Shown in pieces: positions 23,236 through 60,579 of a stretch of DNA of 64,000 nucleotides; position 1 is the first letter of the stretch, and every line of letters starts with the position of its first letter. The stretch is taken from positions 48,229,169 through 48,293,168 of the forward strand of contig OX485806.1 of the NCBI GenBank assembly GCA_950295325.1, read 5' to 3'. The notes beneath the pieces are model-generated. The model was not told the DNA's origin and made no database searches. It saw nothing but the letters and a program-made list of their open reading frames with translations. The translations under genes and the position numbers were made by a program. Source of the DNA: Polytrichum commune (lineage: Eukaryota > Streptophyta > Polytrichopsida > Polytrichales > Polytrichaceae).

Positions 23236-23241
23236 AATAAA
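23236..23241 (+). terminator. poly(A) signal AATAAA of G1
   Basis: AATAAATGCCTT lies about 280 bp after the ORF stop; the same AATAAATGCCTT is in G2 at 55552. It follows a TTGTATTTTGATTACTCC stretch. Confidence 0.5.
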
Positions 23242-23299
23242 TGCCTTAGCTTCTCACTCCTTGACTTTCCTTGGTTAATGTTTGTGTGAATGATCCGGA

Positions 23300-28210: not shown

Positions 28211-28219
28211 CTGATGCAT

Positions 28220-37969: not shown

Positions 37970-38577
37970 TGTCAGCCACAAACCCCCACCCTTGTGTGTC
38001 GTAGTCCGGGTGAGAGCGTGTGGCTCACATGTAATTATTCAACCCCTCAGAACTTAGGGACACAATTCCCGTACTCCAGTAGGATTTACAAAACATATAA
38101 CTATTTATTCAACCTGTGGGAGTCCAAATTCGACGGAAATACGGAAATACGGAAATACGGAAATACGGAAATACGGAAATACGGAAATACGGATTCCCTT
38201 TCCGTATTTTACCTTGCTTATCTGAAGATAATAGGGTCTTTTAGGACAAAATTACTTGTACTAGGAAATAGGGAATTCTAACTCCGCCTTGTGCTATAAA
38301 ACAACTTAAAATAAGTACTATGACCGGCCCGTCAATTTGGATGGGCGGACCGTGTAATCATGGTCTGAACCATTGGTCCGGACCCTGTAACGGTTATGCC
38401 ACGTTCAACCACCAGCCCGGAAGTAGAGAGGCAGTTACAACGGCCTTATGACGGTTGGGGGAAAAGAAAGCCGTTGGTAAAAATGTTAGTAAAACCGTTG
38501 GTGAGAACCGCCGGAAAACAGTTGGTAACCGTTTTCCGTTAAACCAAACGGTAACAGGGGAAGGAAGAGGGAGGAAG

Positions 38578-38588
38578 GATATTTAAGG
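38578..38588 (+). promoter_or_regulatory. TATA-like box of G2
   Basis: GATATTTAAGG, the counterpart of G1 20647, with the same downstream pyrimidine-rich GGGTCCCTTCCTTCTCC. Confidence 0.5.
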
Positions 38589-38816
38589 GTCCCTTCCTTC
38601 TCCCTCCCACTTTTTTCTGAAAAAAACAACCTGTTGAGAGAACGAGTGGTGAGGTGTTAATTCTTTCGAGCCGCCAGCAGTGGGATTGCTGGGACTCTGC
38701 ACTTTTCAGTCACCGGCAGTGGGCTTGCCGGGACTCTGTGGCAATTAGACGGAAAGGAAGGAATCCGGAAGAGAGGGAGTTTCCGTGGTCGAGCCGGAAA
38801 CTGAGAGAAGAGGAAA

Positions 38817-39754
38817 ATGCCGGAAGCACGGGAAGACGATAAGAGGGAACCTATCCCGGTTCTGCTCAAAGCCCTCATCCCTGCAATTCCGAGGGAGGAT
38901 AGGGAGCTACAGGAGCTCGCGGAGGATCTCCGGGTTATGGGCTGCGTGGGGTTGCTAGCCAAACCCTGGAACCTCTGAGCCGAAGATACCCTCCGAGAGT
39001 TTAAGTTTGAGAGAGGAAATCAGTGGCTAGGGACAAAGAGGAGAGATCCGGAACATTGGACTCCGGACATTTGGAACAGGGTCTACGGGTTTCCTCGGGG
39101 GATTACAGAAGGATGGGCCGGCCGCTGCGACGGCTTGTTCGCCGGAAAATTTAGAGGGGACACGGATCCGAAGGACGGCTTCCACCCCGGAAACTGCCGG
39201 AACCTGAGAGAGAGGAGGGTGTTGGAATTCCTCCTGCCTATCCTTAACCCGGACAAGCCAAAGCGGATTAGCCTTACCATGGCTAACACGCTGTTTGGTG
39301 CCATGTCCGGAGTCCAGCCTGTGAACTGGGGGTTGATTATCCAGGAAATAGTGGGGCGGGCCCTCCCCCATATTGGCCGGAAACCCTCCTTCCTCTCCCC
39401 CTTCATTTTGCATCTCTACCAGCATTTTGACTGCATCACGGCCGAGGAGGAGGACCTGCTCACGATAGCGGCGGACGAGGTCACCTACAAGCTGCTTCCG
39501 GAAGCCGGAGACGTCGAGACGGAGACCTCCTGCGACCCTCTGCTTCCGGAAGCACCTCCCTCGTCACCCGGAAGCCCGCCGCCAACCGTCTCGAGGCCAC
39601 TCTCTCCTCCTCCCCCTCACCAACATCCGGAAGCCGGACCCAGCCGGGAGACCCCATGGCGAAATGTGGATCTATCCGCTTGGGAATTTCCGGAGAATCC
39701 GTTCAAACGGTTCCAGGAGGGGATGGAGGACCTCAAGACCCAGTATTACCGGCT
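38817..39754 (+). pseudogene. family G ORF, copy 2, 5' half
   Basis: Starts MPEAREDDKREPIPV as G1 does. A TGA after PWNL (about 38976) replaces the Arg codon of G1. From 39135 the frame is open and nearly identical to G1 over the domain with NTLFGAMSGVQPVNWGLI and FLSPFILHLYQHFDCI, up to EGMEDLKTQYYRL, where M5 interrupts it. The 3' half continues at 54126. Confidence 0.75.
39746..39754 (+). repeat. left target-site duplication of M5 (TTACCGGCT)
   Basis: TTACCGGCT directly precedes GGGAAACTCAAG; the same nine bases follow the right end at 54126-54134. Splicing the flanks at this point restores QYYRL...EHIV of the G ORF. Confidence 0.92.
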
Positions 39755-39800
39755 GGGAAACTCAAGTATGTGAGCGGAGAGCGGAGATTGGAGAGCGGAA
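39755..39800 (+). repeat. TIR-a of M5
   Basis: GGGAAACTCAAGTATGTGAG followed by the GAGCGGA repeats. The subterminal block (CCGTGGAATTAGAGATAGTT, then GACATAATAACCCA) continues inward and is shared with M1-M3. Confidence 0.88.
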
Positions 39801-40019
39801 AATTTAGATTTTGTTGGGTAATTTTAGGAGAAGCAGTGCCTATTTCCGTGGAATTAGAGATAGTTTGAATTCTATATTTGGAAAGGTACCCCCATTCCCG
39901 TGGACATAATAACCCAGAATTGTTTGAGAAACCAACGGATCCTATAGGCGTGGAAGATTGCATTTGTTATTAAACATCTTATAGTATATGTTCTCAAATG
40001 TATCATATTAAATTAGGGC

Positions 40020-40027
40020 TGACGTCA
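40020..40027. promoter_or_regulatory. conserved TGACGTCA palindrome (M5)
   Basis: TGACGTCA after ATTAAATTAGGGC, 265 bp inside TIR-a. Confidence 0.6.
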
Positions 40028-40139
40028 CCAAATTGAAATCAAAATACCATACACAAAATATTTTGTTGGTCAACAAAATGTAGCCAACCTCAAGACTTAC
40101 AAAAATGGGTAGTTAGTTAAAATAGCTATATACTCTAGT

Positions 40140-40458
40140 TTAGGGCCATCTACACCCTATCTGCCGGGCATGTCCAATATGGGTAAAATGATCCAAAGAA
40201 CATGCCATAAAACTATGTCGCACCATAACAGCCTTCCAATTCAGTCCTTAGCTTAGCCAAAGACCTCAAAGACAAATCCCCCAAGTCCAACCTTAGAATC
40301 CTCTTGGAAATTTTTGAGATGACGTGCCGGCTCTTTGAGAACAACATGAAGTTCAATTTAAAAAGTTTGACGAGGTTATGTTCGCGTGCCAAACAAAACT
40401 TCCAATTGCTATATAGCAATTGGGATTGGAAGACAGCCAATGTGATTAGTGTGCACAA
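40140..40458 (-). pseudogene. ORF X remnant of M5
   Basis: The minus strand reads LAREHNLVKLFKLNFML, then KRILRLDLGDLSLRSLAKLR and TELEGC, matching M3 26730-27266 (REYNLITQFQQNL...RRILMSDLGDLSLRKLAALR). The N-terminal half present in M3 is missing. Downstream nucleotides (CACCCTATCTGCCGGGCATG) are also shared with M3. The two copies prove a conserved segment; the protein family is not recognised. Confidence 0.45.
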
Positions 40459-41062
40459 CCATTAAATAAACCATCCACACTAATAGAAAGTATGGTCTCC
40501 CTATAACTAAGATCTCACACTAAGAGCCGAGAGCTAGATTGTTTTGTGACTAGAAGTTAAGAGATCCGAACGATGAAGAAAAAATAAAGAATGCAATGCG
40601 GGTTGACATTATGAATATGAAATAATGGAGAGAAAGAATGAAACTTGCGCCGGATATCAAAAATAAAACCAACACACAACTCTTATTAAAGCCGGATAAC
40701 AACAACAAACGGAGTTATAATTTCCAAAACCAAAATGATAAACTAAGGGCTTGGAGAACATTCCCTATCACTCTCCTCACCCTCATTTGCTTCTAACAAG
40801 AAAAGATTTCGTGTTCCACGCGAGAAATGACGAACGCGAGGAGGAGATGGGGACTCCGCCTTCGCAAAACAAACCGCCATTGCACTAGCATACGGGGGAA
40901 GCTCAAACGGCTTTGGAGGACTTGAAAACATGTCTCGACGAATGACTGCGACCTCCGCTGGCTCTCTAAACACCCAAGCAAAAGGATTAGAAACATGATG
41001 ACACTAGAAAATGAGAATTTGAAATAAAGGCAAACATGGCAAAATATAGAAAGCAAACTTAC

Positions 41063-41400
41063 GCACAAAGGAATCCGAATGCCCTCTTGGTCATCTTTTG
41101 AGGAGGATCAAAGATAGATGTAGACGGTGCGGCAACTGAGCGAGATATACGCGCAGGCTAAGGATCGCGCATGGAGAGTAGGAGTGAATTGAAAATGACG
41201 GGGTCACTCTCAAGGGCCACAATATGCCGCTCAAGGGAGCGACATGCTGTAATCGAACCACCTAAAGCAACGAGAGGTAAAATGTTAGTATGGAAACTAG
41301 TCAATGAAAAATAATGGAAAATTCAAAGTAAGGATGAAGTTGAAAAAGAAGGCGTACCTACACCACACTGCCAGTCCATAATAACATCATTCTTGTCGGT
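41063..41400 (-). other. SAM-binding motif I-like segment (M5 exons 9-10)
   Basis: Joining exons 9 and 10 gives DVIMDWQCGVGGSITACRS, then LERHIVALESD. This fits motif I of beta-class amino-DNA methyltransferases: hydrophobic-D-x-x-x-G-x-G-S, then A-C/A, then R-x-x-x-x-x-E-x-D. The other copies agree (IIMDWQC; GSVIACRSIQRHIVALELD). It lies after motif IV, as in the permuted beta order. The splice site falls inside the glycine loop, so no single ORF shows the motif. Confidence 0.6.
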
Positions 41401-41859
41401 GAGAGTAGCGAGAAGGATGGAAAAAAAACAAGATGCTTCTCACGGGCACCTCGCCAAGGTACCCCATCACTGCGCATCGCCTGGCTCTTCTCATCGGTGA
41501 AGGTATTCAACCATCCATCTCGTTTTAGGTTGTAACCATACTGTTGTATGGCCTCCTCCCGCACTCTAAGAACGGAGTTAACACGAACAAGAACTTTGAT
41601 GTTGAACTTCCGAATCTGCAACAATGAAAATGAAATTGAAATTGAAATGATAAGCAATACGGAGGGGAAAGAGAGGGAGACTTGTTTACCACTCCAGAGG
41701 GAACAACGGGAGATTGGAGGTCCAAATCATTCATTCCAAACCAATCTTCCGCGACGTAGAAGTCATAAGTGTGAGCCCAATCGAAAATACTCCTAGAAAC
41801 ACTGGCACTCGCACAATGGGCAAGAACAAGGACACCATGATCATAGAGGTTAGATTTCG

Positions 41860-42025
41860 CAAATGCAAAAATACACTCATAGTATGATTCATGGAGCTTG
41901 TTCCAAGCAGGAACATCAGTGGAGATGTTCGGCACCGGCAAATTCTCAGGAATATCGGCGAAGAGCAAATCGAGGCCCTTGTGAGTTGTAGTCGAGGTGT
42001 TCACACGGGAACGACCTGCCCCAAC
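41860..42025 (-). other. motif IV-like segment of the methyltransferase domain (M5 exon 8)
   Basis: GLDLLFADIPENLPVP is followed by ESYYECIFAFAKSNL, YDHGVLVLAH and YDFYVAEDWFGMNDLDL. It resembles strand beta4 with the catalytic (D/N/S)-P-P-(Y/F/W), then helix, then beta5 (L-x-x-x-G-x-L-V-L). The catalytic tetrad, however, reads A-D-I-P or A-D-V-P in M2 and M5 and T-D-V-S in M3. No copy has the double proline and aromatic residue. Either the protein uses a variant active site or it binds without methylating. Confidence 0.5.
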
Positions 42026-44156
42026 CTGCAATTGAAACTTCATGAGAAAACAAAAAGGAAAAAAATAAACAAAGCAAAGGAAAAAAAATTGAGAATTGAC
42101 GAAGGCAAGTATACAAACCTTGGCAATGAACTCTTGGATGCGGGTATATGCGGGGAGGGGACCTCCGGCAACCTCGGAATCCAGCATTAGTTGAACCATG
42201 TCCACATTTTCGATGAGGGAAAGCGTGTTAGGGGCATCCGAAGAGGTGGCACTGGTATCCAAGAGAGCGGCCTTCCTCTTGCGAGGCAAAGAGAGGAGAG
42301 AAGTGCCACTGTGAGATGGAGTGGCAAGAGATTGTGGATGAAATGCAGATGGAGTAACAGAGGGGGCCAGAGAGGGAGCAACGGAGGGAGCGATAGATGG
42401 ACTGTGTGGGAGGGTGGGTGGCTCAACCGGGGTCTTAGAAGCAGACCGAGTGAGAACTTGGAAAATGCTTGAGTGGCGGTCTTCTTTGCTTTGCCCTTTC
42501 TCCTTGGTGCCTTAGAAGGAGGAGGGGGAAGCTCAACGATGTCAGGCTCCTCCAAGGTAACAATGTTATCATCTGGAGCATTACCCACAAGGCTAGCAAA
42601 CAAAGCCTTCTCTTCCCCGGGGACAAATCCTGCAGCACAATCCAAGTACCATCCACCACCTTACAAGTGCAATTCGGAGAACTTGTTTGTTAGCACGGTC
42701 GTGTACACGCAGAGGCTAGAAAAAATATTCACCCAGTCCAAGAGGTAGTCCGGCAAGGAAGATGAGGCCAATCCATTTTTCACAACCAATTCTCTCATGA
42801 TATACCTACATGACAAAACAAGAATGTAAGAAAACCAAGAAAACGAGCAAGAAATGAAATTAAGGAGAGGTGCAAAGTGGAGGATAGATGTATTACCGAT
42901 AGGCCACACGCTTGATAGCGAGAGCCCCCTCCTCGAACTCCAAGAGATTATCACCTTTGGCAAAGGCGATGTCAGGCTTATCGCCGAGGTAAGGCTTGAA
43001 GGCCTTGTCCCAAAGGACAATCCGCCAATGATCAACGTACTCACGAGGGCGCAAGATAGTTTCTGATGCGTCCCAATCAATGTCGACGGAGAGGCTCTCC
43101 TCTAAGGTCTCAATTTCAACCGCGACTTCCTTCTCCAACTGTAGAGAGGGAGATAATTAGATATGAGATAAATGGAATAGAGGAAAATGAAAATGAAGAA
43201 GGCCGAGGAATGGATTTACATGAGCCCAGAAGGACGCCTTGTGTAGCCAGTTGTCCAAAGCCCTCTCCCTCATAGGTTTGTCGACGGGGAACTTGTTATT
43301 TAATCTTTCACGAAGGGGGGCGTTCCACCAGTGAAGCCACTTAGCTTTGAACGAAGCTTCGACCGGGCATGTGACAATTTTTTGCAATTTTTCAATTGTC
43401 ATGTCCGTCAAAGAGAACTCATTAAAATGACGGTCAAACTGTGCACAAAATAAAAATGATTTGAGTTCAAAAGAGTAATAGACTTGAAGAGTGATTTGGA
43501 TGAATTGCGTTCAAGAGTGATTTGAGTTCAAAAGAGTACCTCATGAAAGAAATCCTCTCCATTGTCAAGGTGTGCAACGGATATGTACTTCTCAAAAGAA
43601 CGGGCCCGAATATTTTTTATTGTCCTCTCCTGGGTCTTGGTCATAACAATCCAAATCTTAGTGGCCGACCTCTCCGCAACGGGTGTGGTCTCACGGTAAT
43701 GCCTCACTGCAAGGTCTGCTTGAGCCGAAATGTCTCTTTGCAAGAAATGACCTTGTGAGTTCATATAATCGGCATGGAAATTATCTATGTTGGAAGCTCT
43801 AAATGATTGAATGCACAAAACCATACCTTGTAAAGAAACTTAACGAACACATCCGCGGTCAAGGTGTACCAAATTGGACGACTATCCTTTATCTTCTCGC
43901 ATGCTTTGTAGTCAGATGGCGATATGAGATCCTTGAAGGTGGGCAACTCTAACCTTCCAAAAGTGCGGATTCGAAGGAGCTTGGCCGGAATGTTTGCCTT
44001 GACATAATCATGCTCGGTTGACCTGAGAGAAAATATGTGAGGAACGTGAGGTGAAAAGAATGAAAAAGAATTGAAACAAAAATGAAAAATGAATGAAAAA
44101 AATGAATGAGCTTACCAATTAATGTCGCTCATGGCATTGAGGAATGCACCGATCTA

Positions 44157-44620
44157 TCCTCTAGGGTCAACAACAATGCAATCCACCGAGATATGCCAAC
44201 TCTTGTCATCGGCGTGGTGGTTATTGATGTGTCTCCACCAAGCGGTGAGACGATGATTGCCTTCCCAGACGAAGAACATCTTCCCGGCGAAATGTGCAAG
44301 ATCCAGATCCTCCTTGAGTTTGGCGTCAAATTCTGCAGAGGCCTCTTGCCAGAGAGGGCTCCAAGAGGCCATAATGCCAGGGGGAATGGGGAGGTCCACG
44401 GGAGCGTCGTTGAAAGCAGACACGTAAAGAACCCTATCACCCTCTCGGTATCCCATTACAAATTCACATTCCAAGCACTGCACCTCAATCTCACTCATAG
44501 GACGGACAAGAGGAAGGGCTCTCAAGCGACACAAAGGAATGGATAAGTGGGACTTACAGGTTGGCTTAATCCGGAGGCGTTGGATAACACCAATGGAGTC
44601 CTCCTTTTGTGATTTCTGAA
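44157..44620 (-). other. ParB/sulfiredoxin-like domain (M5 exon 2)
   Basis: CRLRALPLVRPMSEIEV resembles the first strand of ParB N-terminal domains (L-x-P-x-x-x-R-x-x). It is followed by CEFVMGYREGDRVLYVSAFN, and about 60 residues later by FFVWEGNHRLTAWWRHI. The last fits the ParB/sulfiredoxin signature G-x-H-R-x-x-A, which binds nucleotide. Then WHISVDCIVVDP gives the closing strand. M3 keeps GNHRLSAWW; M2 has decayed. Conservation of G-N-H-R in two copies beside weaker flanks supports a real site. The distance between strands is longer than in typical ParB. Confidence 0.5.
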
Positions 44621-45916
44621 GCTCAAGCTTACACACCACGGGATCCGTGTCGGCAACTGCTTGAACGGCATCTTCGCTCATTGCGAGAGCCTAACAAAAA
44701 CACAAACAATAAAACCATGCTTAGAAAGCTAGAACTCAAAAAACTTGCTCAACAAATTACTCAACAACTATCCAACTCACCTCTACTTGTAATGGGCCCT
44801 GCGAATTGAGACTCTCAACCTGCACAGCTTCAACTTCAGCCGCGGGGGCCGCAAGAACAACATCCTCTCCAGATTGGGGTTGCGATTGCGCAACCTGTGA
44901 AGAGTCCATATCCTAAGAACATGAAGAAAATGAGAATTTCACAAAGAAAAGTCAATAACTTCGTAACTATAAAGAAAAAAATCCTCACAAAAACAATACA
45001 AGGCCGAGAGCAAACTACAAATGGAAATGGCCGAATGCTAAGTCAAGTGGTCAACTCTAGCACTAACCTACCTACGAATGAGAGGCCTCGGATCCGAGGC
45101 CTCTTTTCCTACCTCCTCCTTATGCACTACCCAAAAGAAAAAGGCCGAGAGAAATCTTATGTGAACATAGCAGTTTGACTTTTCAAGCCCATACATTGTC
45201 TCCAAAATGAGGCCTCGGATCCGAGGCCTCTTCACAAACCTCCTACTCATGTAGTACCCAAAACAAGAAGGCTGAGAGCAATCTTACATGAACATAACAT
45301 TTTGATTTTTCTAGCATAAAATTGACACAAACATGAGGCCTCGGATCCGAGGCCTCTTCCCAAAACACATACTTATTCACTACCCAAAACAAGAAGGCCG
45401 AGAGCATTTGAAAATGAACATAAGATTTTCATTTTTCAAGCACATACCTTGACACAAAAATGAGGCCTCGGATCTGAGGCCTCTTCACAAAGTACCTACT
45501 TATGCACTACCCAAAACAAGAAGGCCAAGAGCATTCCAAAATGAACATAAGATTTTCATTTTTCAAGCACATACCTTGACACAAAAATGAGGCCTCGGAT
45601 CCGAGGCCTCTTCACAAAGTACCTACTTATGCACTACCCAAAACAAGAGGGCCAAGCGCATTAAAAAATGAACATAACATTTTAACTCTTCATGCACATA
45701 CCTTAACACAAAAATGAGGCCTCGGATCCGAGGCCTCTTCCGAATGCCCCTCCTTATGAAATACATACTACAGAAAATGGCCGAGAGAATTCAAAAATGA
45801 ACCTAACATTTTCATTTTTCAAGCACACAACCTCACTCAAAAATGAGGCCTCGGATCCGAGGCCTCTTCCAAATGCCCCTCCTTGATGATTTTAAAACCT
45901 AACCAATTTACTTGTT

Positions 45917-48223
45917 ACATGGCTCACGGGTGTTCACCCGTGAGGTTCACATTTGATGATGTTCCAGGGGAGGTCACTCCATTGCCAAGTTGCATCACCA
46001 AAATGGGTCAAAATTTTCTCAATTGTTTTTGGGAGGTAGATATACATGATATCTATTACGGAGTAAAATATCATGACCAAATTTGATGACCATATTTTTC
46101 TAGAAAACATACAATTTCTACCTAGAATGACGCAGAATTCAACTAAAACAATTACTAGGAAAAATGAAGATGACAAAAAATTTCAAAAAAATATACAAAA
46201 GATATAATAAATGGTTGTGAATATAGAGAAAAAAAATCATAATTTTTAAAAATATTTGACATGGAGACATCTCCTCGTGATAATGCTAAATCCTTTCCAA
46301 GTTACCTGTTACATGGCCCACGGGCGTTCGCCCGTGGGGCACACATTTGATGATGTTAAAACCTAACCAAGTTACTTGTTACATGGCCCACGGGTGTTCG
46401 CCCGTGGGGCACAAGGCAGAGAGCAAGGAACCAAAAAAGCAAGAAAGTTGACATTCTATTAGTTTGAGAAATCAAGAACCTCACCTCTCTCAAAACCCTA
46501 CCTTTCACATACTCAAACTTACACAAATATGAGGCCTCGGATCCGAGGCCTCTTCCTATGGCTCCCACTTATGCACTACCCAATAGAAGAAATGGCCGAG
46601 AGCAAGGAATCAAGAAAGCAAGAAAGTTGACATTCCATTAGTTTGAGAAATCAAGAACCTCGCCTCTCTCAAAACCCTACCTTTCACATACTCAAACTTA
46701 CACAAATATGAGGCCTCGGATCCGAGGCCTCTTCCCCTAGCTCCTTCTTATGCACTACACAAAACAAGACAAGGCCGACAACAATTGATGTGCACATAAC
46801 ATTTTGATTTTTCAAGCACAAACCTACCCACAAATAAGAGGCCTCGGATCCGAGGCCTCTTCCTATGGCTCCCACTTATGCACTACCCAATAGAAGAAAT
46901 GGCCGAGAGCAAAGAATCAAGAAAGCAAGAAAGTTGACATTCCATTAGTTTGAGAAATCAAGAACCTCGCCCCTCTCAAAACCCTACCTTTCACATATTC
47001 AAACTTACACAAATAAGAGGCCTCGGATCCGAGGCCTCTTCACAAACCTCCTACTCATGTAGTACCCAAAACAAGAAGGCCGAGAGCAATCTTACACGAA
47101 CATAACATTTTGATTTTTCTTAAATAAAATTGACTCAAACATGAGGCCTCGGATCCAAGGCCTCTTCACAAAGTACCTACTTACGCACTACCCAAAACAA
47201 GAAGGCCAAGAGCATTCAAAAATGAACATAAGATTTTCATTTTTCAAGCACATACCTTCACACAAAAATGAGCCCTCGGATCCGAGGCCTCTTCACAAAG
47301 TACCTACTTATGCACTACCAAAAACAAGAGGGCCAAGAGCATTCAAAAATGAACATAAATTTTTAATTTTTCAAGCACAAACCTTGATACAAAAAAGAGG
47401 CCTCGGATCCGAGGCCTCTTCCCAAAGCTCCTACTTATGCACTTAACAAAATACAATCCCCCCCCCCCCGCAGCTTCAGACCTCCATATCTTCCACGTGT
47501 GGTCTCCGAATCTAACAATCAACCACTGTATCGTCATCTACGTGAAATGTAGATGCCGATGGACACCTCACTTGCCCCATTTGGGCAAAAATCAAGGAAG
47601 TTATGCCTGTTTAAACATTCGCAGTCCCGGGAGCCACTCCCTGGAGACTGCTGATCGAGGGCACTAAAAGGAGGCCTCGGATCCGAGGCCTCATTTTCAA
47701 ACTAGTTTACATACTCAAAAACAAGCAAAGTGCCTCATTCATACAAGCTATACGTTGAATCAAAAAACCTCAAGTGGCCTCGGCCGAGAGGCCTTGGATC
47801 CGAGGCCTTACACACAAACTAGTTTACATACTCAAAACCAACCAAAGTGCCTCTTCCGTACACTTGTTTTGGAACACATAAAAGAGGCCTCGGATCCGAG
47901 GCCTCATTCACAAACTAGTTTACATACTCAAAACAAACCAAAGTGCCTCATCCGTACACTTGTTTTGGAACACATAAAAGAGGCCTCGGATCCGAGGCCT
48001 CATTCACAAACTAGTTTACATCCTCAAAAACAAGCAAAGTGCCTCATTCATACAAGGTATACTTTGAATCAAAAAACCTCAAGTGGCCTTGGCCGAGAGG
48101 CCTCGGATCCGAGGCCTTACACACAAACTAGTTTACATACTCAGAACCAACCAAAGTGCCTCATAAAAACATGCCTAACCAAGTTACTTGTTACATGGCC
48201 CACGGGCGTTCGCCCGTGGGGCA
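45917..48223. repeat. second palindrome class in the M5 array
   Basis: CCCACGGGCGTTCGCCCGTG (GG) occurs at about 46318 and 48199, with TGTTCG variant at 46385 and a diverged CACGGGTGTTCACCCGTG at 45926. Each follows AGTTACTTGTTACATGGC. The arms pair over 10 bp, so single strands would form a stable hairpin. It is unrelated to the AGGCCTCGG palindrome. Confidence 0.85.
47455..47668 (-). mobile_element. fragment of family T inside the M5 array
   Basis: About 215 bp matching the middle of T4 (CAGCTTCAGACC, then GATGCCGATGGACACCTCAC, CAGTCCCGGGAGCCACTCCC) is embedded in the array. It starts after a run of about 13 C and has no family T ends and no duplication. A palindrome follows directly at 47672. 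Confidence 0.8.
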
Positions 48224-49783
48224 CAAGGGAGAGAGCAAGGAATCAAAAATGGAAGAAAGTTGACATTCCATTAGTTTGAGAAATCAAGAACCTCACCTCT
48301 CTCAAAACCCTACCTCTCACATATTCAAACTTACACAAATATGAGGCCTCGGATCCGAGGCCTCTTCCCCTAGCTCCTTCTTATGCACTACACAAAACAA
48401 GACAAGGCCGAGAGCAATCGATGTGGACATAACATTTTGATTTTTCAAGCACAAACCTACCCACAAATAAGAGGCCTCGGATCTGAGGCCTCTTACTATG
48501 GCTCCCACTTATGCACTACACAATAGAAGAAACGGCCGAGAGCAAGGAATCAAGAAAGCAAGAAAGTTGACATTCCATTAGGTTGAGAAATCAAGAACCT
48601 CGCCTCTCTCAAAACCCTACCTTTCACATACTCAAACTTACACAAATATGAGGCCTCGGATCCGAGGCCTCTTCCCCTAGCTCGTTCTTGTGCACTACAC
48701 AAAACGAGACAAGGCCGAGAGCAACATGATGTGCACATAACCTTTTGATTTTTCAAGGACAAACCTACCCACAAATAAGAGGCCTCGGATCCGAGGCCTC
48801 TTCCTATGGCTCCCACTTATGCACTACACAATAGAAGAAATGGCCGAGAGCAATGAATCAAGAAAGCAAGAAAGTTGACATTCCATTAGTTTGAGAAATC
48901 AAGAACCTCACCTCTCTCAAAACCCTACCTCTCACATATTCAAACTTACACAAATATGAGGCCTCGGATCCGAGGCCTCTTCCCCTAGCTCTTTCTTATG
49001 CACTACACAAAACAAGACAAGGCCGAGAGCAATAGATGTGCACATAACATTTTGATTTTTCAAGGACAAACCTACCCACAAATAAAAGGCCTCGGATCCG
49101 AGGCCTCTTCCTATGGCTCCCACTTATGCACTACACAATAGAAGAAACGGCCGAGAGCAAGGCATCAAGAAAGCAAGAAAGTTGACATTCCATTAGGTTG
49201 AGAAATCAAGAACCTCACCTCTCTCAAAACCCTACCTTTCACATACTCAAACTTACACAAATATGAGGCCTCGGATCCGAGGCCTCTTGCCCTAGCTCGT
49301 TCTTGTGCACTACACAAAACGAGCCAAGGCCAAGAGCAATTGATGTGCACATAACATTTTGATTTTTCAAGCACAAACCTACCCACAAATAAGAGGCCTC
49401 GGATCCGAGGCCTCTTCCTATGGCTCCCACTTATGCACTACACAATAGAAGAAATGGCCGAGAGCAAGGAATCAAGAAAGCAAGAAAGTCGACATTCCAT
49501 TTGTTTGAGAAATCAAGAACCTCGCCTCTCTCAAAACCCTACCTTTCACATACTCAAACTTACACAAATATGAGGCCTCGGATCCGAGGCCTCTTCCCCT
49601 AGCTCGTTCTTGTGCACTACACAAAATGAGCCAAGGCCGAGAGCAATTGATGTGCACATAACATTTTGATTCTTCAAGCACAAACATACCTTTCCTGACA
49701 TGTTCCTAAACCCAAATCAGGACAAGGCCGAAAGCAAGTCAAGCTGATATTCCAAATACTATGAGAAATCAAGGTGATAGAAA

Positions 49784-50187
49784 TTAAGCAAAAACGTTGG
49801 CGAACATAGCTTGGCCGAGATCCCGACACCTTACCAGAATTTGGAGTATGCCCTCCACTGAAGCCCCTATATTGGCGCCACTATCTTCCGAGGTCCCGTC
49901 CTCTGTCGGCGTTATTGGAGTGCTTCTCGAATCTCCGAGGTTTACTTGCGCCATTCCTCTCCCGCGGCCACGCCCTCGCCTTGATGTTTGTTGTGTTCCG
50001 ACGCCTTGCTTCGCAGAAATCTTGAAGCAGGGGTCACAACATCCACACTTAGGGTTTCTGCGCATGGGTCTCCTCCTTCAGCTCTTTCGCGGCCTCCCAA
50101 CAAATTTGATTTCAGATCTTCCTTTGCCGCTTTCCTCTTAGACGCCTTCATTTTTTCTCTTGCTTGAATCGTTGGTTGTCCCGACAT
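49784..50187 (-). pseudogene. possible 5' exon on the minus strand beside the M5 transposase
   Basis: From ATG at 50187 the frame reads MSGQPTIQAREKMKASKRKA. After a frame change (a stop intervenes) it continues MRRNPKCGCCDPCFKISAKQ, then RRGRGRGRGMAQVNLGDS and GASVEGILQIL, ending at a good donor (CTG|GTAAGG, about 49830). Cys-rich CGCCDPC and the RGRGRGRG run look protein-like. It could be a far-upstream first exon of the methyltransferase-like gene, with the array in its intron, or a captured host fragment. It replaces the transposase N terminus in this copy. Not recognised. Confidence 0.3.
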
Positions 50188-50216
50188 CGGTTCTCGCTCT
50201 TCTAACGCCTTCTCGA

Positions 50217-53012
50217 GTTGTGATTACCTTCAACGCACCCATCGTACCTCTAAGGTCAATGACACAGAATTTGAAGGTTTCACTAAAGATCCTTTCCCTC
50301 TCTCTGGCATTGTGCCATCCGGATCTACTCTTGTCTGCAGGATCTGTAAAGAGCCTCGCAAATGCATTGCACTATGCGAGGCCAAAATCTTCTACGTCCA
50401 TGGGAAGGAGTCATCCCAAAGAGCCTGCATTCATCTCGGTTCTCATCAACATCCAGTGAAGGTTGGAGACTGTAGAGACAGTTGGAAGCGTATCAATGCA
50501 CTTCTTGAGGAGCACGTTGAACGTACGCCTCAAGCCACCCACAGCAAGATCGTCCTTGAAGCTAGCAAGGACATTGTTGGTGAGTTTCTCCTTTCTGGCG
50601 ATAATGACACACACCGTCTTTTCTCTTTAAACAAGCTTGAACTTGTTTTTGAGAGCTGTAGAGAGTTGAATTCCCCAAACCTTCGCTCTAAGGTTACCTC
50701 TTTCAAATATTTGCGGAGGTTTGGTGTTATGGATGGCATCGCAAAGCTCCGAGGCGTTAGCAATTGGGCCTACGTCCAACGGAACCAATTCCCATGACAA
50801 GGTGACGACACAGACAAGGTGTTCGTCTTCAAGATGTCGGAGGTTGGTCCTGGAAGTGGAGTGGATTTGGTTCGTCGGATGCAACCGGGTGGGGACCTGG
50901 AGAACGCGTGGATGATGTCCGATCACGTGAAGCGGGTCAAAGGGTGGACCACCATGGCCGCTCATGTGTACGATGGGACTTATCAACGGGTCATGACCAT
51001 TTCATGTTGTGATTTCCAATCGGAGGATAAGGATGCCCAAGTTCTCTTCTGGCAGAACCTCAACCACGTCATGGCCCGACACGGTATCCCACATCCAAAC
51101 TTTATAGGCTTCATGGCGGACAGTGCCCAAGCCAATTGGAACGCTGTTCGCATTGTGTATGGTTCAGGGGATCCCAAAGTTCCAATGGAGGGTCGTGAAC
51201 GCACTTGTTTTTTCCATTGGAAACAATCGCTCGAAAAACATACGAAATCGTATATAAAGCATGAGTTACAAGACCAACATAGACATCTTTGCCTTCAATA
51301 TCGAAATGCGTCATCTATGGAAGAGGCTGAGACTAGGTACCTAGCTATCAAGGCTTGGTGGGCGTCATCGAATTGTACAAGTGAGGACGGTCTCAAGCAT
51401 CTTCAGCTCTGGCTTGCTTTTTGGCACTTCCGCTACCTTCAATGGGGTGGTTTCATGGAACTGGTACATCTCCTTTATAATTCATTATTGGTTTTTCTTG
51501 GATTCGATTTCCTCTCTCTGTACATTTATATTAATACTTGATTTCTCCAATCAGGAAAAGGTTTTAACCCAAGACCAATTGGCCGAGATGCCGTCGTGCA
51601 ATCTTGCGGAGTCCATCCACAACAAGTGGCTTCAAGCCTCCGGCAACAAGGGTGGAGATCTATACGTGGCTACGGTTGACGACTACATTCGCGCCTTCTT
51701 ACAAGTTGTTGCATACTACCAGTTCCTTAAAGGTGGAATTGGCGGAGATGGTCCAAGCAAAGAAGAACTAAAGCTCAGGGGTGCTCAACGTCGAGCTCAG
51801 CGTACTGGCGACCCCACAGTGTTGCAGAAGGTCTTGCTTGACATGTCCGGTGGGGAAGAATTTTGCACTCGCGATCCACACCTTGAGGGCGCCGAGGTGT
51901 TTGGATCGCAGAAGCGAAGACCAGACACTCCAATTGGTGATGATGGCGAGACCCACCGCCCCGATACCGTGAACTTCTCTCGCCCTCCCCCCGGTAAGCG
52001 TGTCACTCGATCTCAACCAGAAACACTACCCACTATCATTGAGGAGTCTTCCCCCTCTGTACAAGAGGTTCAAGTACCTTCACCTGCAGGACTTGGTTTC
52101 CAGCGTGTCACTGCCGTGCAAGAAACCAAAGTAGATGTCTCTCTTTGGCATATTGCCCGCATACCCTATACGTCTGGGAAATCTTGTTGGGCTAATCATG
52201 CGGGCACGAAGAAGAAGTGCACCGCAAGAATCGTCACTAATAATAAGAGCGTCCCTACGCCGACCTACACCGGTATGTGGCATCATTACAAGCTCCAATC
52301 TATGAAGCGCACGGACTTTGTCTTTTGCCCATACGACATTGAGCGTTGCGTGAAGAGCCCTCGTCGGAAATGGATCATGCCGTTCTTTGCTGATGACCAG
52401 AAGCCTCTTATTCCCCCAATCTGGCCCGTGAAGATTGGTACCAACCTCATCCGCTCGGAGATCTTCGCCCTTGAGAACGCAAGTTTTCAACTCCCACCAA
52501 AGGAGCGCATCACACCGACTCAACTCTTCACCAACTCTGCTCCCCCGTTGGATATGTCTGGAATCCGTGTTCCAGAAAACCCCGACATGATCCCTCCGAC
52601 AAGATTGTCCAAGCTTGTTCGGCGATCCAGCAGCGCACCTTCGGCAAAGCAGAGGCAGATGATGGCCTCTGCTGAAGCTATGCATGGTACCGTTCTGAAG
52701 TTAACTATGATCCCTCAACCGGGATTTGGTTGCATTATCACACTGCAGTCCAAATCAGAACCCCAACCACCAATCTACCAAGTGACAGTGAGTTCTCTTC
52801 CAGAGTGCAACTACGCATACTTCTTGGATATGATTTCCAAGTTCAGCCGCAAACGAAATTCTTATCTGAATTGTAAGCATTTGTATTACATTTTCATCAA
52901 GGTTTCTAATTTGGATGCGGAAGTGAATTTGTTCATTCACGCCCCGACATTTAGCTTCAACGAAGTCAAACTCATCCTCGAAGGGGGTCTTTTGACAAAG
53001 TCTACTTCTTAG
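50217..53012 (+). pseudogene. MULE transposase of M5 (N terminus lost, one stop)
   Basis: Two exons, about 50217-51463 and 51555-53012, with a 91-bp GT...AG intron at the same place as in M1. Homology starts abruptly at CDYLQRTHRTSKVNDTEF. Zinc finger of GCM/WRKY type: CRICKEPRKCIALCEAKIFY, then ACIHLGSHQH. Catalytic core: HVYDGTYQRV (Asp), GFMADSAQANWNAV (Asp), ERTCFFHWKQS (C-x-x-H), NLAESIHNKWLQASG (Glu). A long spacer with CTARIVTNNK and CVKSPRRKWI follows, then a SWIM finger ECNYAYF...LNCKHLYYIF, where M1 supplies the missing Cys (CNC). One TGA at 50797 interrupts exon 1 (FP-stop-QGD); exon 2 is fully open to KSTS-stop. MULE transposases cut at TIRs and give 8-11 bp duplications, as seen here. 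Confidence 0.87.
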
Positions 53013-53173
53013 GATTTATCTCAACCTAGCAGTACTTTGGGCTATGATATATGTGTCCATTTCTGGACCTCTTGTGAAGCAATAATTGATTGATATAATA
53101 AAGGTATAATCTCAATGATTATTTTTATTTGCTTCAAAATTTTGTATTACAATGCTTCCTATGTCTATCAATT

Positions 53174-53629
53174 CTATTTCCGTTTTGCATACTTCTTAGA
53201 TGATTGCGAGGGAGGTGGACCCGGTCGAAGCAAATCCATATAAGAAATTGTCTTATCCTTCAGCGGAAGATGATGCGGCGTCATTCCTCTCATCCGCTCG
53301 CGAAATGAAAGAGACTTCGAAGATTCCCCTTCCACCTTCACCTCCTCCTCCGTTTCGTTCGATTTGTCTTCATCCAAATCAGCATCCTTCTCCGGGACAT
53401 CATCCTGCCTTTTTTCTTTTTTCTCATATTGTTTTTGCTCCTCCCGCACCCTCCACCTCCATGCTTGTGTAGACTGCGAAAATGGAGTCAGCTCGTAGTC
53501 ATCACTACTTCGATTTCCAGCAGCAAACTCAAATTCCGGCGATGGATTAAAGGGAATATGAGGATCTCCTAGACTTCTAATTTCCTTCTCCCATCCTAAT
53601 CCAGCAAACATGTCTCTCTCATCTCCCAT
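53174..53629 (-). CDS. accessory protein of the MULE, 151 residues, function unknown
   Basis: Open from ATG (MGDERDMFAGLGWEKEIRS) to stop after KKYAKRK. The N-terminal third has SLGDPHIPFNPSPEFEF and YELTPFSQST. The middle is a charged helix (EEQKQYEKKEKRQDD) and acidic stretch (DADLDEDKSNETEEEVK); the C terminus has SSKSLSFRERMRGM, then ISYMDLLRPGPPPS and a basic end. No signal peptide or membrane segment. M1 carries a decayed homologue in the same place (7738-8273), so it belongs to the element. It faces the transposase tail to tail, with 161 bp between the stops. The M5 copy alone is open throughout. It might bind DNA or the transposase; that is only a guess from its charge pattern. Confidence 0.6.
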   Translation of the reverse strand: MGDERDMFAGLGWEKEIRSLGDPHIPFNPSPEFEFAAGNRSSDDYELTPFSQSTQAWRWRVREEQKQYEKKEKRQDDVPEKDADLDEDKSNETEEEVKVEGESSKSLSFRERMRGMTPHHLPLKDKTISYMDLLRPGPPPSQSSKKYAKRK

Positions 53630-53650
53630 TGTGTGCAACTGTATATACAA

Positions 53651-54125
53651 TCATGTTGGGTATGAGTCCAATTTATAATCTATTCGGCCACAAACGATAA
53701 TTGCTAAAGTCCAAGCTATAGAATAGACTCACATATAAGACAAAGAGAAAAGTGATGAATAAAAACCAAACAAGTTTATTATTTTGATTCCTTTGTATTT
53801 TGATTGACTCATTCTTCAATTATACCAATCTCAAAAAATCCATTTTCATTGATTTTTTCTTGTAGTCATCATTGGTTTTAATAATTCAACCACCTCATGG
53901 TTTCCAAACTTAATGAGACCATTTCAAATTCAGGGTTTTTATTTTATTTTATAACCTATACATCCCACGGAAATAGGTCCAATTTTTTTACTATTATTGT
54001 CAGATTCTGGAATATTCTTGGTATATTCTTGGCTATTTTGAAATATCCTAATTTTAGTCTGACAAGTTTTTTATTTTTATTTCCTCTACGCTCTCCGCTC
54101 TCCGCTCACATACAAGTGTCGTCCA
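53651..54125. other. TIR-b side subterminal region and TIR-b of M5
   Basis: AT-rich, no gene. It matches M1 7203-7680 in reverse (CCAAACTTAATGAGACCATT, TTTCTTGTAGTCATCATTGG). The last 40 bp are TIR-b (GCTCTCCGCTCTCCGCTCAC then ATACAAGTGTCGTCCA). Confidence 0.75.
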
Positions 54126-54134
54126 TTACCGGCT
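54126..54134 (+). repeat. right target-site duplication of M5 (TTACCGGCT)
   Basis: Exact copy of 39746-39754; the G2 ORF resumes from it. Confidence 0.92.
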
Positions 54135-55269
54135 GGAGCACATCGTCAGGGTGGCGAACCATGCTCTGGACGACTGCGGACCCGGAAACATTCTCCGGGA
54201 GTTGGCAAAGAGGGCGGACCGGAAGGAGCTGGAGCAGGCCAAGACGGAGAACGCCCACCTCACCGCACAGGTAACGGCCATGACTCAGGAGTTGAGTCAG
54301 AAGAGCGAGGAGATCCGGAAGTACCATGCGGAGCAGGTAGTGCTCTTCAGCCAGATCCGGGAGCTGGTGGGTCATCCGGCGGAGATCGTCAACAGGGCGC
54401 ATCTCTATGACCGGATGATGGAGTCCGGAGAACCCGCTTCCGCCAGGCAGACCCTCCCCATCCTCGTGAAGTATTCACGGACGATGAAAGATCTCCTGGC
54501 GGAAATCCAGAGGGTGGTCCCGCCAAGCGGAACACCCCGGAGGGTGCTCTATCCGGGTCCGCCAGGGTCACCAACCGGAACCCTCTACGAGGTGGTTGGT
54601 GAAGTAGCCCTGGTTCAGAATCCGCCGTCCTCTGCAGGACCCAGCCAGCAGGGAGGCGGCTCTCGGCCTGGTAGTTCCGGAGGGGCTCCGGAAAGGGTCC
54701 GTTCTCCCCAGGTGAGGCGGAAGAGCACCGGGTCGGTCCGATCCGGAAGGGGCCAGTCCCCTGTTCCGCGGAACTCGGATAGGTCCCGGACTCCGGATAA
54801 GGCTAGGACGCCGATCTGGCACCAGACTTGTGATCGGGAGGCAACTCCGAGTAGGGGCAAGGCCCCTATGACCCACGCCTCGCCATCGTCTCCGCGGGAC
54901 TGCCAAATGATGAGTCCCTTTCCTCCGCCACCCTCAAGGGCGACCTCCAACAGGGATCCGCGGACGGCTTCGATCTCGGGCGGACGGAATCCGAAGCAGG
55001 GCACCGGAAGCGATCCTTCTCCAGTCCGAAGCATCCGGATGGGGACAGCTTCCGGAACCCCAGGGACAGTCTCCGGAACACCAGGGACCGCTACCCCACG
55101 GACCAAAAAGGCAGCAGATTCGGAGGACGAGGTTGCTCCGTCTCCGAACATGAGGAGGATGCTCACGCGGCTGCAGAAGGCATCGCCGGCAGGGGGCTCA
55201 TCCGCCGTCAGCGGGTTAGGGAGTCACTCAAAGGAGGGATTGGCTCCGAAGAAGCACCGGTCTTCTTAG
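54126..55269 (+). pseudogene. family G ORF, copy 2, 3' half (open)
   Basis: Continues the G2 ORF after M5: EHIVRVANHALDDCGPGN, coiled coil ILRELAKRADRKELEQAKT and TAMTQELSQKSEEIRKYHAE, then QVVLFSQIRELVGHPAE (CAG where G1 has TAG). A Ser/Pro/Arg-rich tail with RRKSTGSVRSGRGQSP and TPGTVSGTPGTATPRTKKA ends APKKHRSS-stop at 55267-55269. The frame is unbroken for over 370 codons. The tail resembles a basic nucleic-acid-binding C terminus, but no zinc knuckle is present. Confidence 0.75.
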
Positions 55270-55551
55270 TTAGGAGAGTAGCTAGATTAGTTAGGCAGAA
55301 TAGAGGTAGGCAGGGAGGACTTAGGAGTTTTTGAAAACGAGTAATAATATTTTCCCTTGGAAGTGTCAGCGGAAAACCCGGATCTGGATCCGGGAAATCC
55401 GGGAGACCAGGTGTGGTTAGGGTTTTTCTTAAGCGGCGGCCACTTGGGCCGCCGTCCTCAGTTTAGGGATTTTGAGCCTCTACTTAAGGCTGAATAAGGA
55501 GCTTGAGAAGGGTTCATTCTCCATTGTTGTATTGTGATTATTCCTACTCCG

Positions 55552-55557
55552 AATAAA
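55552..55557 (+). terminator. poly(A) signal AATAAA of G2
   Basis: AATAAATGCCTTTGC, about 285 bp after the ORF stop; conserved with G1. Confidence 0.5.
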
Positions 55558-55739
55558 TGCCTTTGCTTCCCACTCCTTGACTTCTTTTGATTGATGTTTG
55601 TGTGAATGATCCGGAGAGTTCTAGACCTCCTACACTTCACAGAATCCCTGGACGATACTAGGGTCATCCGGACAACCCGGATTAGGCACTTAAAACCGCC
55701 AATCCGGATATTTTGGTGTTCGCGTGCTCCCACACAACC

Positions 55740-56756: not shown

Positions 56757-59700
56757 TGTCGCAACCCTTGCTAGCCCCCCTTGATAATCTTGCCAATTTT
56801 CAATTCTAGCAAAGGTTACGAGCGCTAACCATTCACATTCCGCCATGCTAATGGTTAGCTCCTCCTACCCAGGACCATATAGTTCATAGGAGGGGACCAA
56901 CCTTCCTACTTTGCTTTCGGGACTCACCCCTTAATCGGTAACCCATTCCTAGATGTGGACTTCCATCCATGGAAGTCCAATCCCATGTTGATCATCGCGT
57001 TGCCGGAGCAACACTACAACAACCCGAACCATACTAGGCAACTATGGCCTCACATTGGGCCAATGCCCATGGAGGCCGTGCCATTCGGCCTCGGGTGGGT
57101 GAGGCCACACCACCTCACCCATATAAGCCTCTAGGACTCTACACGGAGCCCCTACCCCACCGCCAACCAACCTCTTGTCTCTCTACCAAGAGTTGGGGCC
57201 AAGTGGACATTTTCCTTTAGCTGTTGGGCATAGAACCCCCCCAGCAGCTTCAGACCATCATAACTTCCTTGTATGATGTCTGATTGTGGTACTTTTGGGC
57301 CACCCCCTTTCGAAGGAGCCTAAAAGTATCACACAAGCCCTTCGGTGAAGGTGGCCTGCATTTGCAGACGCCCAAGCCGAACCCGGATGATAGGTGTATA
57401 ACGTGAGTAGTTAGATTTTTAAGGGAGATTAAATATGCGTCGTAGTACCTCCGGAGGTTAGGCCTTAGTTTTTTACTAGTGTGGCTTTAAACTCCACTAA
57501 CCAATTTCATATCTAGTTCTAACCTTAACCTACAACCTATTCTACGCGCAGACGCACCAGCCTTGAAACCAAGGCAATCCTAATTTGTGAATTGGGATGG
57601 TTCTGATACACCCAACCGGGTGTGACTCATACCACCCTAACTCAACGAACGGAATAACGACAATTTGATGGACCATTCAATTCTTCCTATTTCTTTATTT
57701 AGTTCTATTTAGTTTTCTAAGCGGGGGAACTTGGCCTAAGTCCCACCCTTCACACAAATTCCTTCTTAATTACTTACTTTTGTTTGCACGTCCTAACTTA
57801 CTACATTAACATATTAGGCATCACCCCTTACCTCGGGTCTCTTGCCAACAAGGGTTTACGATTTATTTGGTATGTTTTGATTGTTAAATGTGTTTACACT
57901 GGATAGACCACGAAATGCAACTCAATGGGACCAGGGTGACGGGCGACCTGTAGGTTCAACCTGTTGCGCAATCTTCATAAATTGGGGCCATTACTCCCAA
58001 TCTATGGGGCCAACAACATAATAGTGGATTCGCGGGTCATTAACCCCACCTTTCCACCAACAACATTCAGAGTGGTCGTGTCGGTGATTAATCCGACTTA
58101 CCACACACGAAACTTGCTAATAAATGAAGGTACTACCACAAAACATACCAAGGGCCCCGAAAACAATGGAATTGGGTACTCCCTTGGCGGTCAAGTGGTC
58201 AAGCCACTTGACCTTACGAGATAGGTGAGTGGGTTTAGAGATGCGTACCTTAGCCGTGCTCCCTCCAATCCTAAATGGAAGGCTTAAGGTTAGTTAATTT
58301 ACCTCAATTTTCCTCGGTTGATTTGGGCTTGATGTAGGCCGAGCCGCTACCTCCTTCCTTGCTCCACTTTCCGAGCGTCGACCTTGCCTCCTTCTTTGTA
58401 ACTAGTTTGGTAGTAAGCGTACCTTAGTTAACAATTAAAATATAAAGTGTTATTCTGCCCTGTAATTTAATCCTAAGCATAATATTTATACTTAGTGCAC
58501 CAAATTATCTTTCCAATGATCTAAAAATCACTCTAATCGGATAAGAAATGCAAAAGTTATGAGGGTTGGAAGTGTGAGGTCGATTCAACCGACCCTTCCA
58601 ACCCACCTATCTACCTTCTAACTTCAAAAATTCATAGCACATTCCTTACTACTTGGATCTAGGCTTTCCTTATACCATTGGAAAGCTATGAACAAGCTCT
58701 AACTAGAAAAATTATGACATCAGCAGGTTAAGCTAATAGAAATTCAGCGGACTCCTTGTAACACAGCAGTCAATCAAGAAGGCTTGAACTATGTATCTCG
58801 CCTTCAACAATTCATATCTAATTCAAATCTTAGTCAAATCAAACGTTCTATATGACCCTGGAGAGATATTAAAAAGATGTATTTGATAAAAATATGTGAT
58901 TAGAAAGGTAAGCCGAAGTGAACCCAGCAGGTCCTCTGTAATGCAGCAGTCAACCAAAAGTTCTCAAACTATGTGTCCCATCTTGCACAATTCATATCTA
59001 ATTCAAATCATGCTCAAATCAAATGTTCTAAGCCATTTTGGAAAGCTACACAAAAGTTCTACTTGGGAAAAATATAATTTCTTGGAATTAAAATTCCTAT
59101 TGGGCTCGCAGGTCTGATCCAGCAGCCGCTACCCACAAGACCACCCAGTTTTTCTACTCCATCTTTGAAAATCCATAACTAATTGTCATCTCAACCAAAT
59201 CACAAATGGGAAACGGCTATGGATAGCTATATGAAATCTCTCTAAGAGAAAAATGATAAGTATCTTGTTCTAGCTTTTGAACTAAGCCTTCAGGGCATTG
59301 GCAGATGAGGTCTATAATGCCTCTACTCAAAACTCTACCATCCAACCTACCTCTACAAAAGAAGGAATAATTTTGTTGGTGTGTTAATAAACACACAACC
59401 TAACTAGGAGAGAGGGAGTAGAGGAGGTTCTCAAGCCTTTCTTTTAGACCATTGAGAATACATGCTAAAGGATTTTTTCCTAACTACATTGAAGCAGGGC
59501 TTCGCCCAAAAACTAGAGAAAGAGAGAGAGCTACAAGGTGGAAGGAGGGGTTTTTAAACCCTCTCACAAAAGGGTTGGACCCCTCCTCCACCGGATCCAT
59601 TTTTCAAACCCTTTCCCGAAATTTTGGCTCGGGGGTTTTCCCGGTTGAGGTTGCCATCCTCTCGCCGAGGTGGCTCCGACAGAAAACCTTTAGAAATCTT

Positions 59701-60574: not shown

Positions 60575-60579
60575 CCAGC

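Follow-up and report, generated by a model that had tools for sequence, protein, structure and literature searches.

The 64-kb stretch of the Polytrichum commune genome analyzed here (contig OX485806.1, below referred to as the window) contains M5, a transposable element similar to Mutator-like elements (MULEs), which carries two divergently oriented genes, a transposase and an accessory gene resembling DNA methyltransferases and, by motif, ParB, with a long array of short palindromes between them (Table 1). In an earlier note made from the sequence alone M5 had been described as a single mobile unit, and the ends, the 9-bp duplication, the interrupted reading frame and an empty paralogous site are all confirmed. 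The terminal inverted repeats are imperfect (approximately 46 bp with a shared core of 22 bp, from the comparison of the two M5 ends), GTATGTGAGCGGAGAGCGGAGA being common to both ends in inverted orientation, and in the left-end search most matches begin at the first base of M5 (best 40 of 257 candidates scored). The target is a repeated family of gag-like open reading frames (ORFs), located in the window at 20881–22032 and, split by M5, at 38979–39754 with 54135–55269; one copy is uninterrupted. The empty paralogous target is found in the same window, with 38494–39756 corresponding to 20563–21832, and 54127–55619, to 21823–23303, so that the two halves overlap in the paralogue by the duplicated bases. 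MULEs duplicate 8–11 bp of the target, usually 9 bp; the M5 insertion, with the 9-bp TTACCGGCT and the empty paralogous site, has this length, and its ends carry the terminal inverted repeats expected of MULEs. M5 is a dead copy, as both its accessory gene and its transposase are broken, and hence its being functional was rejected. A search of the entire window against Rfam yielded no match.

Table 1. Positions of M5, its components and other repeats in the window
Feature	Positions	Strand	Basis or remark
Target-site duplication, left, TTACCGGCT	39746..39754	.	sequence
M5, one inserted element	39755-54125		ends and 9-bp duplication
Left terminal inverted repeat	39755..39801	+	same start base in most other copies
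Accessory gene, 11 exons, pseudogene in M5	40743..44909	-	open throughout in sister copy
Accessory exons 1-3	44909-44781, 44690-44116 (ParB-like), 44022-43827	-	
Accessory exons 4-6	43737-43540, 43438-43220, 43138-42897	-	
Accessory exons 7-8	42805-42119, 42025-41690 (motif IV position, DIPEN in M5)	-	
Accessory exons 9-11	41615-41358, 41261-41063 (motif I across these two), 40965-40743	-	
Palindrome array, unit GAGGCCTCGGATCCGAGGCCTC, between the two divergent genes	45081..49593	.	sequence
Second inverted repeat in the array	45923-45944, 46317-46338, 46387-46408, 48199-48220		
Segment of ~200 bp inside the array	47463..47665	+	72-81% identity to five other segments of the window
Transposase exon A, matching the catalytic region	50216..51466	+	M5 lacks the N-terminal part and has a stop at 50795-50797
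Transposase exon B	51555..53012	+	C-terminal SWIM-like CxC..CxH, by eye (L085; partly M1)
Small conserved ORF	53177..53629	-	comparison with M1
Right terminal inverted repeat	54080..54125	-	sequence
Target-site duplication, right, TTACCGGCT	54126..54134	.	sequence
GGGCGCTGTCCCGGGACAGCGCCC repeat family	5244-6168, 13630-15803, 27261-28212, 56757-57284, 60124-60575		
Tandem array, open as repeat protein VGSHFGSETRWVGLILNFDSHDECL..., 226 aa	28338-30783	-	

The exon structure of the accessory gene agrees with the earlier description, but the gene is not intact in M5: exons 2, 7 and 10 contain in-frame stops, the frame is broken in exons 7 and 9, and the acceptor at exon 4 is altered. In the sister copy (C2:56500342) the 11 exons contain no stop over 1083 compared codons, and splicing gives a protein of 1087 residues. 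Five other copies match exon by exon in unchanged order, with no stops in L080 and L082, one in L083, two in L081 and three in L084, the stretches compared in L082 and L083 ending before the methyltransferase exons. The latter two copies also have approximately 1.8 kb between the fifth and the sixth accessory exons, possibly a nested insertion.

Purifying selection has maintained the accessory gene while its copies diverged considerably. The ratio of nonsynonymous to synonymous substitution rates (dN/dS) was estimated by the Nei–Gojobori method from tblastn-aligned codons with stop codons left out, 6 of the 21 pairs being saturated and some others near saturation. Here and below, clade A comprises loci with the ParB-like exon at least 70% like that of the sister copy, and clade B, those below 70%. 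With M5 left out, dN/dS is 0.17–0.20 among three A-clade subfamilies and 0.15–0.16 between these and L084; among three B-clade copies it is 0.10–0.14 (551–561 codons). The comparison of copies proposed in the earlier note thus gives 0.10–0.20 between subfamilies, that is, constraint and not neutral evolution. The between-subfamily values including the M5 pseudogene are 0.16–0.22, and M5 compared to the sister copy yields 0.44, as expected of a recent pseudogene. By region, the values are lowest in exons 3–6 (0.07–0.11) and the ParB-like exon (0.09–0.11), followed by the methyltransferase exons (0.16–0.23), the long low-complexity exon 7 (0.25–0.31) and the last exon (0.52–0.58).

Sequence similarity identifies the C-terminal half of the accessory protein as a relative of DNA methyltransferases of the N6/N4 type. 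Motif IV precedes the S-adenosylmethionine (SAM) motif I, the latter lying C-terminal to it as in N6/N4 homologs; the best match in the PDB is DpnA (E-value 0.0023; 0.006 in another search, where an N4-cytosine methyltransferase and CcrM come next at 0.23–0.32). PHROG methyltransferase families match this part with E-values down to 1.3e-4, and all 20 phage records listed, of 23 matched, have the match at an annotated methylase or methyltransferase, many of these records being near-duplicates. The Pfam family N6_N4_Mtase, with the best E-value of 0.053, did not reach the cut-off. In the SAM motif region, WQCGVGxS and HIVxLES are kept in four aligned copies. The catalytic motif of N6/N4 methyltransferases is (D/N/S)PP(Y/F/W), and it is absent in the seven copies read: motif IV has the form D[IMV]PEN in six of them and DVSEN in the seventh, a decayed copy, so that in all seven DPPY has lost its second proline and its aromatic residue. 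This replacement indicates that methylation has probably been lost; SAM binding may persist.

In the N-terminal segment, IPLCRL and GNHRL, which we take to be typical of ParB/sulfiredoxin domains, are invariant in all 14 aligned copies. The ParB-like exon has no match in Pfam, PHROGs or NCBIfam, and tblastn searches of plasmids and phages gave best E-values of 7 and 3, respectively, at genes with annotations other than ParB. The AlphaFold2 model of this exon (exon 2) has a predicted local distance difference test score (pLDDT) of 37.9, too poor for a fold search; scanning of viral contigs with both alignments yielded 8 and 47 pattern matches, with no relative confirmed among them; and the full 1087-aa protein matches no Pfam family at E-values up to 10, DUF1985 and DUF287 of the VANC proteins included. 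Hence, of the two segments claimed earlier, the methyltransferase-like one is backed by profile matches, while the other is ParB-like by motif. A protein of the same size, domain order and orientation from an Ectocarpus transposon, considered below, gives indirect support for the ParB label. Like such genes, the accessory gene lies inside the element on the strand opposite to the transposase.

The motif order in the transposase, determined by eye, fits MULEs (YDGTY, DSA, CxxH, CxC..CxH), and exon B is constrained, with dN/dS of 0.18 relative to M1, another copy in the window. The first 158 residues of the transposase fragment from the copy L085 have no match in M5 at the E-value threshold of 1e-3. 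Neither the transposase pieces nor the spliced 1059-aa protein from L085 match the Pfam MULE or SWIM families; the PDB profile search with the transposase core gave a best E-value of 0.24, to an unrelated protein, and the AlphaFold2 model of the core (pLDDT 39.5) is too poor for a fold search. The motifs thus suggest that this is a MULE transposase, as had been proposed; the duplication length, the ends and the motif order agree with that assignment, while a match to the Pfam model was not obtained and the M5 copy is broken. The small ORF, initially called conserved, is so only weakly: over 137 codons compared to M1, dN/dS is 0.44, with three stops in M1.

The family is large. The searched genome comprises 407.8 Mb in 64 contigs, of which C1–C7 together make approximately 406 Mb, and only the best 150 candidates were scored in each protein search. 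Its 28 matches to the NAC domain, 14 in each of the two domain parts and hence some 14 genes, compared to zero in 14 control genomes, mark it as that of a land plant, and so few NAC genes would be consistent with a bryophyte. The ParB-like exon has 1255 candidate places (1218 when the copy at 36 kb served as query), and the transposase exon, 1744, with a 766-aa open frame in many copies of the best group. Among the best 150 of the 1255 ParB-like exons, 117 have no stop in the match, and 33 are stop-bearing. Divergent transposases are found within 20 kb of at least 85 of the best 150 exons, as compared to the mean of 0.68 and the maximum of 3 pairs in 200 rounds of random placement (149 exons on seven large contigs). 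This pairing holds at all levels of similarity: among the 55 exons closest to that of M5, at least 47 have a divergent transposase within 35 kb and at least 43 within 20 kb; the respective numbers are at least 6 and 5 among the 14 exons that are 70–83% like M5's, and at least 45 and 37 among the 81 that are 54–69% like it. All these counts are lower bounds, being based on the best 150 matches of each gene. Conversely, at least 100 of the best 150 transposases have a ParB partner within 35 kb among the matches listed; in the case of the remaining 50, the gene may be absent or the partner may lie beyond these matches.

These data bear on the possibility that the accessory gene is a chance passenger with no function for the element. 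The M5 copy is a pseudogene, and 33 of the best 150 ParB-like exons contain a stop; against this, purifying selection across subfamilies and the fixed linkage and orientation, far beyond random placement, largely refute the passenger reading, which we consider hardly credible, and chance capture was ruled out on the same grounds. The family design inferred in the earlier note is thereby upheld. The same gene order in M1–M3, also claimed there, is seen in the genome-wide pairing, but the copies within the window are too partial to demonstrate it: M1 retains the transposase and one accessory exon, and the pieces at 16–20 kb and 31–37 kb contain accessory exons with no transposase match within them. 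Separately, 15 of the 33 stop-bearing exons are on C4, 14 of them at 41–59 Mb, compared to 48 of the best 150 exons on C4. Stop-bearing copies are thus more frequent in this region, which includes the window and may be a low-recombination compartment where old copies accumulate.

The array extends from the upstream side of the accessory gene in the direction of the divergent transposase. In M5 it contains 24 perfect palindromes of at least 14 bp, spaced by 96–307 bp with one gap of 686 bp; about four imperfect ones, identified by reading, bring the total to approximately 28, all of which had been counted as perfect. Genome-wide, CTCGGNNCCGAG occurs 7400 times, and the reversed control pattern, 154 times. 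Among about 100 matches listed, CTCGGNNCCGAG is clustered, some clusters adjoin known ParB loci (C1:49705, C1:2258155), and the center of the site differs by cluster. We read 67 distinct loci around the ParB-like exon, most of them found by likeness to M5 or one other copy from the window; at least two strict sites are present in 58 of the 67, including all 30 loci of the M5 subfamily (with M5 itself). The arrays of subfamilies differ in units and spacers yet keep a site based on the half-site CTCGG, which is common to arrays with units of approximately 127 bp (L041), 139 bp (L045, L050) and 75 bp (L086–L088). That units so different keep the same half-site ruled out the palindrome being a by-product of one ancestral repeat unit.

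Conservation of sites was further assessed by pairwise blastn of 11 arrays, with and without masking of the sites. Twenty-four of the 55 pairs are similar, and 11 of these 24 lose all similarity once the sites are masked; in particular, M5 and L041 share at least 400 matches, those listed being no longer than 34 bp, and none after masking. Close relatives (L041/L042/L089, L045/L050) keep many long matches after masking, M5 keeps eight short ones with each of L039 and L040 and two with L042, L045 keeps nine with L046, and the other remaining pairs keep a few short ones. Within the M5 subfamily (30 loci), the fraction of non-consensus bases is 0.0058 in palindrome columns and 0.0235 in spacers.

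A host transcription factor could be what recognizes the palindromes, which would then be an ordinary promoter or enhancer repeat. The array is situated between two divergent genes, and the site outlasts its surroundings in the 11 array pairs mentioned above. However, a host factor would not explain, unless by linkage, that the base flanking the half-site switches with the clade of the ParB gene and not with transposase similarity. Indeed, CTCGG is preceded by C in all 34 loci of clade A (442 of 446 half-sites), and by T in all 24 loci of clade B (326 of 328). We consider the host-factor explanation decidedly unlikely.

For loci with a divergent transposase within 20 kb, the transposases next to A-type arrays are 100 (M5, for its subfamily), 96, 94, 90 and 81% like that of M5, and those next to B-type arrays, 95, 95, 95, 93, 90, 89, 89, 84, 80, 80, 80 and 79%. 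The B-type set includes L086–L088, with single half-sites in one direction, and L043, with a relaxed palindrome; L067 and L072 (one T site each; transposases 82 and 87%) were left out, as was L049, whose nearest transposase is that of M5. As transposase similarity fails to separate the half-site classes, elements have exchanged the accessory gene with the array against a near-identical transposase, which fits a binder and its site travelling as a pair.

This distribution also bears on a rival view, in which the transposase of the element, or a cofactor, binds the array and the ParB gene plays no part. Arrays bound by transposase products are known in other superfamilies, such as the TNPA motif arrays of CACTA elements, and the M5 array is upstream of the transposase as well. 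Still, it is internal, not subterminal, and the half-site class does not follow transposase similarity (A with 81–100%, B with 79–95%), a pattern that ParB linkage could also cause; overall, such binding seems rather unlikely to us. To a similar degree we doubt a model, suggested earlier for the Sola-1 protein of Ectocarpus, in which the accessory protein marks the palindromes of its own element by N6-adenine or N4-cytosine methylation. Domain order and size do match that protein (1104 aa in the available text of PMC12477816, 1087 residues here), the SAM motif region is conserved under purifying selection, and the A-type palindrome contains GATC and GGCC. On the other hand, motif IV is altered in all seven copies, and many B-clade arrays have an AA/TT center, so that GATC is not kept.

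The reading to which we give an even chance is, by analogy with VANC, sequence-specific self-recognition of the element, for anti-silencing or auto-regulation, by an unrelated, probably non-methylating ParB–methyltransferase protein. In a large MULE-like family with two divergent genes and a long candidate target array between them, the accessory protein, as a dimer or multimer, would bind the array of its own element and of similar copies. Clustered binding over the shared promoter region would protect the element from host silencing, leaving it open and transcribed, or, alternatively, would tune both genes. The pairing of palindromes and accessory gene as target and binder, a link absent from the earlier note, is to our mind the most interesting part of these results. 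An extended form, where a non-catalytic ParB-like reader with a methyltransferase fold binds parS-like arrays and spreads over the element, as a second independent invention of sequence-specific anti-silencing, and protein and half-site co-evolve into mutually blind clans, is conceivable but unlikely.

Several observations weigh against self-recognition through the array. No profile search of the N-terminal segment gave a match, and its model was too poor for a fold comparison. Since the accessory gene starts next to the array, ordinary linkage in recombination of elements could by itself produce the same co-variation. The 67 loci are not independent, since they were selected by likeness and 30 of them belong to the M5 subfamily. 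In nine of them the number of strict sites is below two: the palindromes are relaxed in L043 and L044 and absent from L047 and L061, and the other five loci have a single site. In the L086–L088 subfamily the half-sites are single and point in one direction; arrays can therefore do without palindromy, and a general rule of perfect palindromes was discarded for this reason. Thirteen of the 24 similar array pairs keep some similarity after masking, and 31 of the 55 pairs, nearly all between clades, have none even unmasked, as the shared core is too short for the threshold. Finally, shifting the mask by 25–99 bp gives 0.0064–0.0189 non-consensus bases (mean 0.0129), close to the 0.0058 of the palindromes, and the within-subfamily margin is therefore modest.

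Other repeats were also observed. The M5 array contains a second inverted repeat, CCCACGGGCG-TT-CGCCCGTGGG and its variants, with a stem of approximately 10 bp, identified by reading. The copy L047, with a diverged ParB gene, an open exon and no CTCGG array upstream, has a flank whose far end begins with tandem repeats of the CCCCGGTACCT type, which may be a different target motif. A separate repeat family is marked by the palindrome GGGCGCTGTCCCGGGACAGCGCCC, present whole or as its 16-bp core in four places of the window; the approximately 200-bp segment inside the M5 array is related to it, and the palindrome is also found in L051, L070, L077 and L078. The minus strand of a further tandem array is open as a repeat protein (Table 1).

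Among prokaryotic systems, GxxR is a ParB motif, and ParB–parS resembles the M5 family in combining a GxxR-containing segment with palindromic sites; in the M5 family, unlike ParB–parS, the sites are many and dispersed. DpnA, CcrM and prokaryotic ParB-methylases share with the accessory protein a motif IV placed before motif I and a recognizable SAM region. The M5 family differs from these proteins in the altered motif IV, in a ParB segment beyond profile detection, and in being encoded by an 11-exon gene of a plant transposon. One such ParB-methylase, Bce_0392, is mentioned in the available part of PMC5512222.

The earlier note knew of accessory genes in VANDAL and MuDR elements, but of no MULE with a ParB–methyltransferase gene. 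According to the available text of PMC12477816, transposon accessory genes of this type are already in print, in other superfamilies: Sola-1 of Ectocarpus and, as cited in that text, transposons of green and red algae. As described in that text, Sola1-1_Ec32 is, like M5, a large DNA transposon that has ParB-like and N4/N6 methyltransferase parts in one protein of approximately 1100 aa, with the gene for this protein and the transposase gene in opposite orientations; it and its relatives belong to other superfamilies and to algae, whereas the M5 family is MULE-like and from a plant. The term "palindrom" does not occur in the available text of PMC12477816. For the M5 family, the altered catalytic motif argues against the part of the published proposal by which the protein modifies its own sequence. 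We found no report in the open-licence literature of ParB with Mutator-like elements or, among the matches listed, with moss and transposon, and a term search of the available text of a Mutator survey (PMC6446971) gave no ParB, methyltransferase or moss. As far as this literature shows, a ParB–methyltransferase gene in a MULE-like plant family of such size is new; so are the altered catalytic motif, the half-site that differs by clade and the candidate role of the arrays as targets. ParB–methyltransferase transposon genes, reported but unexplained, thereby gain a candidate cis target, and the natural variants of protein and half-site (GAGGCCTCGG- and ACCCTCTCGG-type) make a set for direct tests of binding, methylation and anti-silencing.

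The closest functional parallel is VANC of the Arabidopsis VANDAL elements, a MULE accessory protein which, according to the available text of PMC5735166, binds short arrayed motifs in non-coding parts, as seen by chromatin immunoprecipitation sequencing and electrophoretic mobility shift assays, and induces loss of methylation throughout the element; its motif arrays diverge quickly between relatives (PMC5735166, PMC10398659, available parts). VANC-bearing VANDAL elements thus share with the M5 family an accessory gene, tandem short-motif arrays in non-coding regions, and motif variants between relatives. In the same source VANC has DUF1985/DUF287 domains, not ParB or methyltransferase ones, and its motif YAGTATTAY is arrayed in one orientation, whereas the M5 array consists of palindromes. 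If the VANC-like function predicted for the M5 family is true, sequence-specific self-recognition arose two or more times in plant transposons, out of proteins unrelated to each other, and such proteins would be candidate tools for locus-specific epigenome editing.

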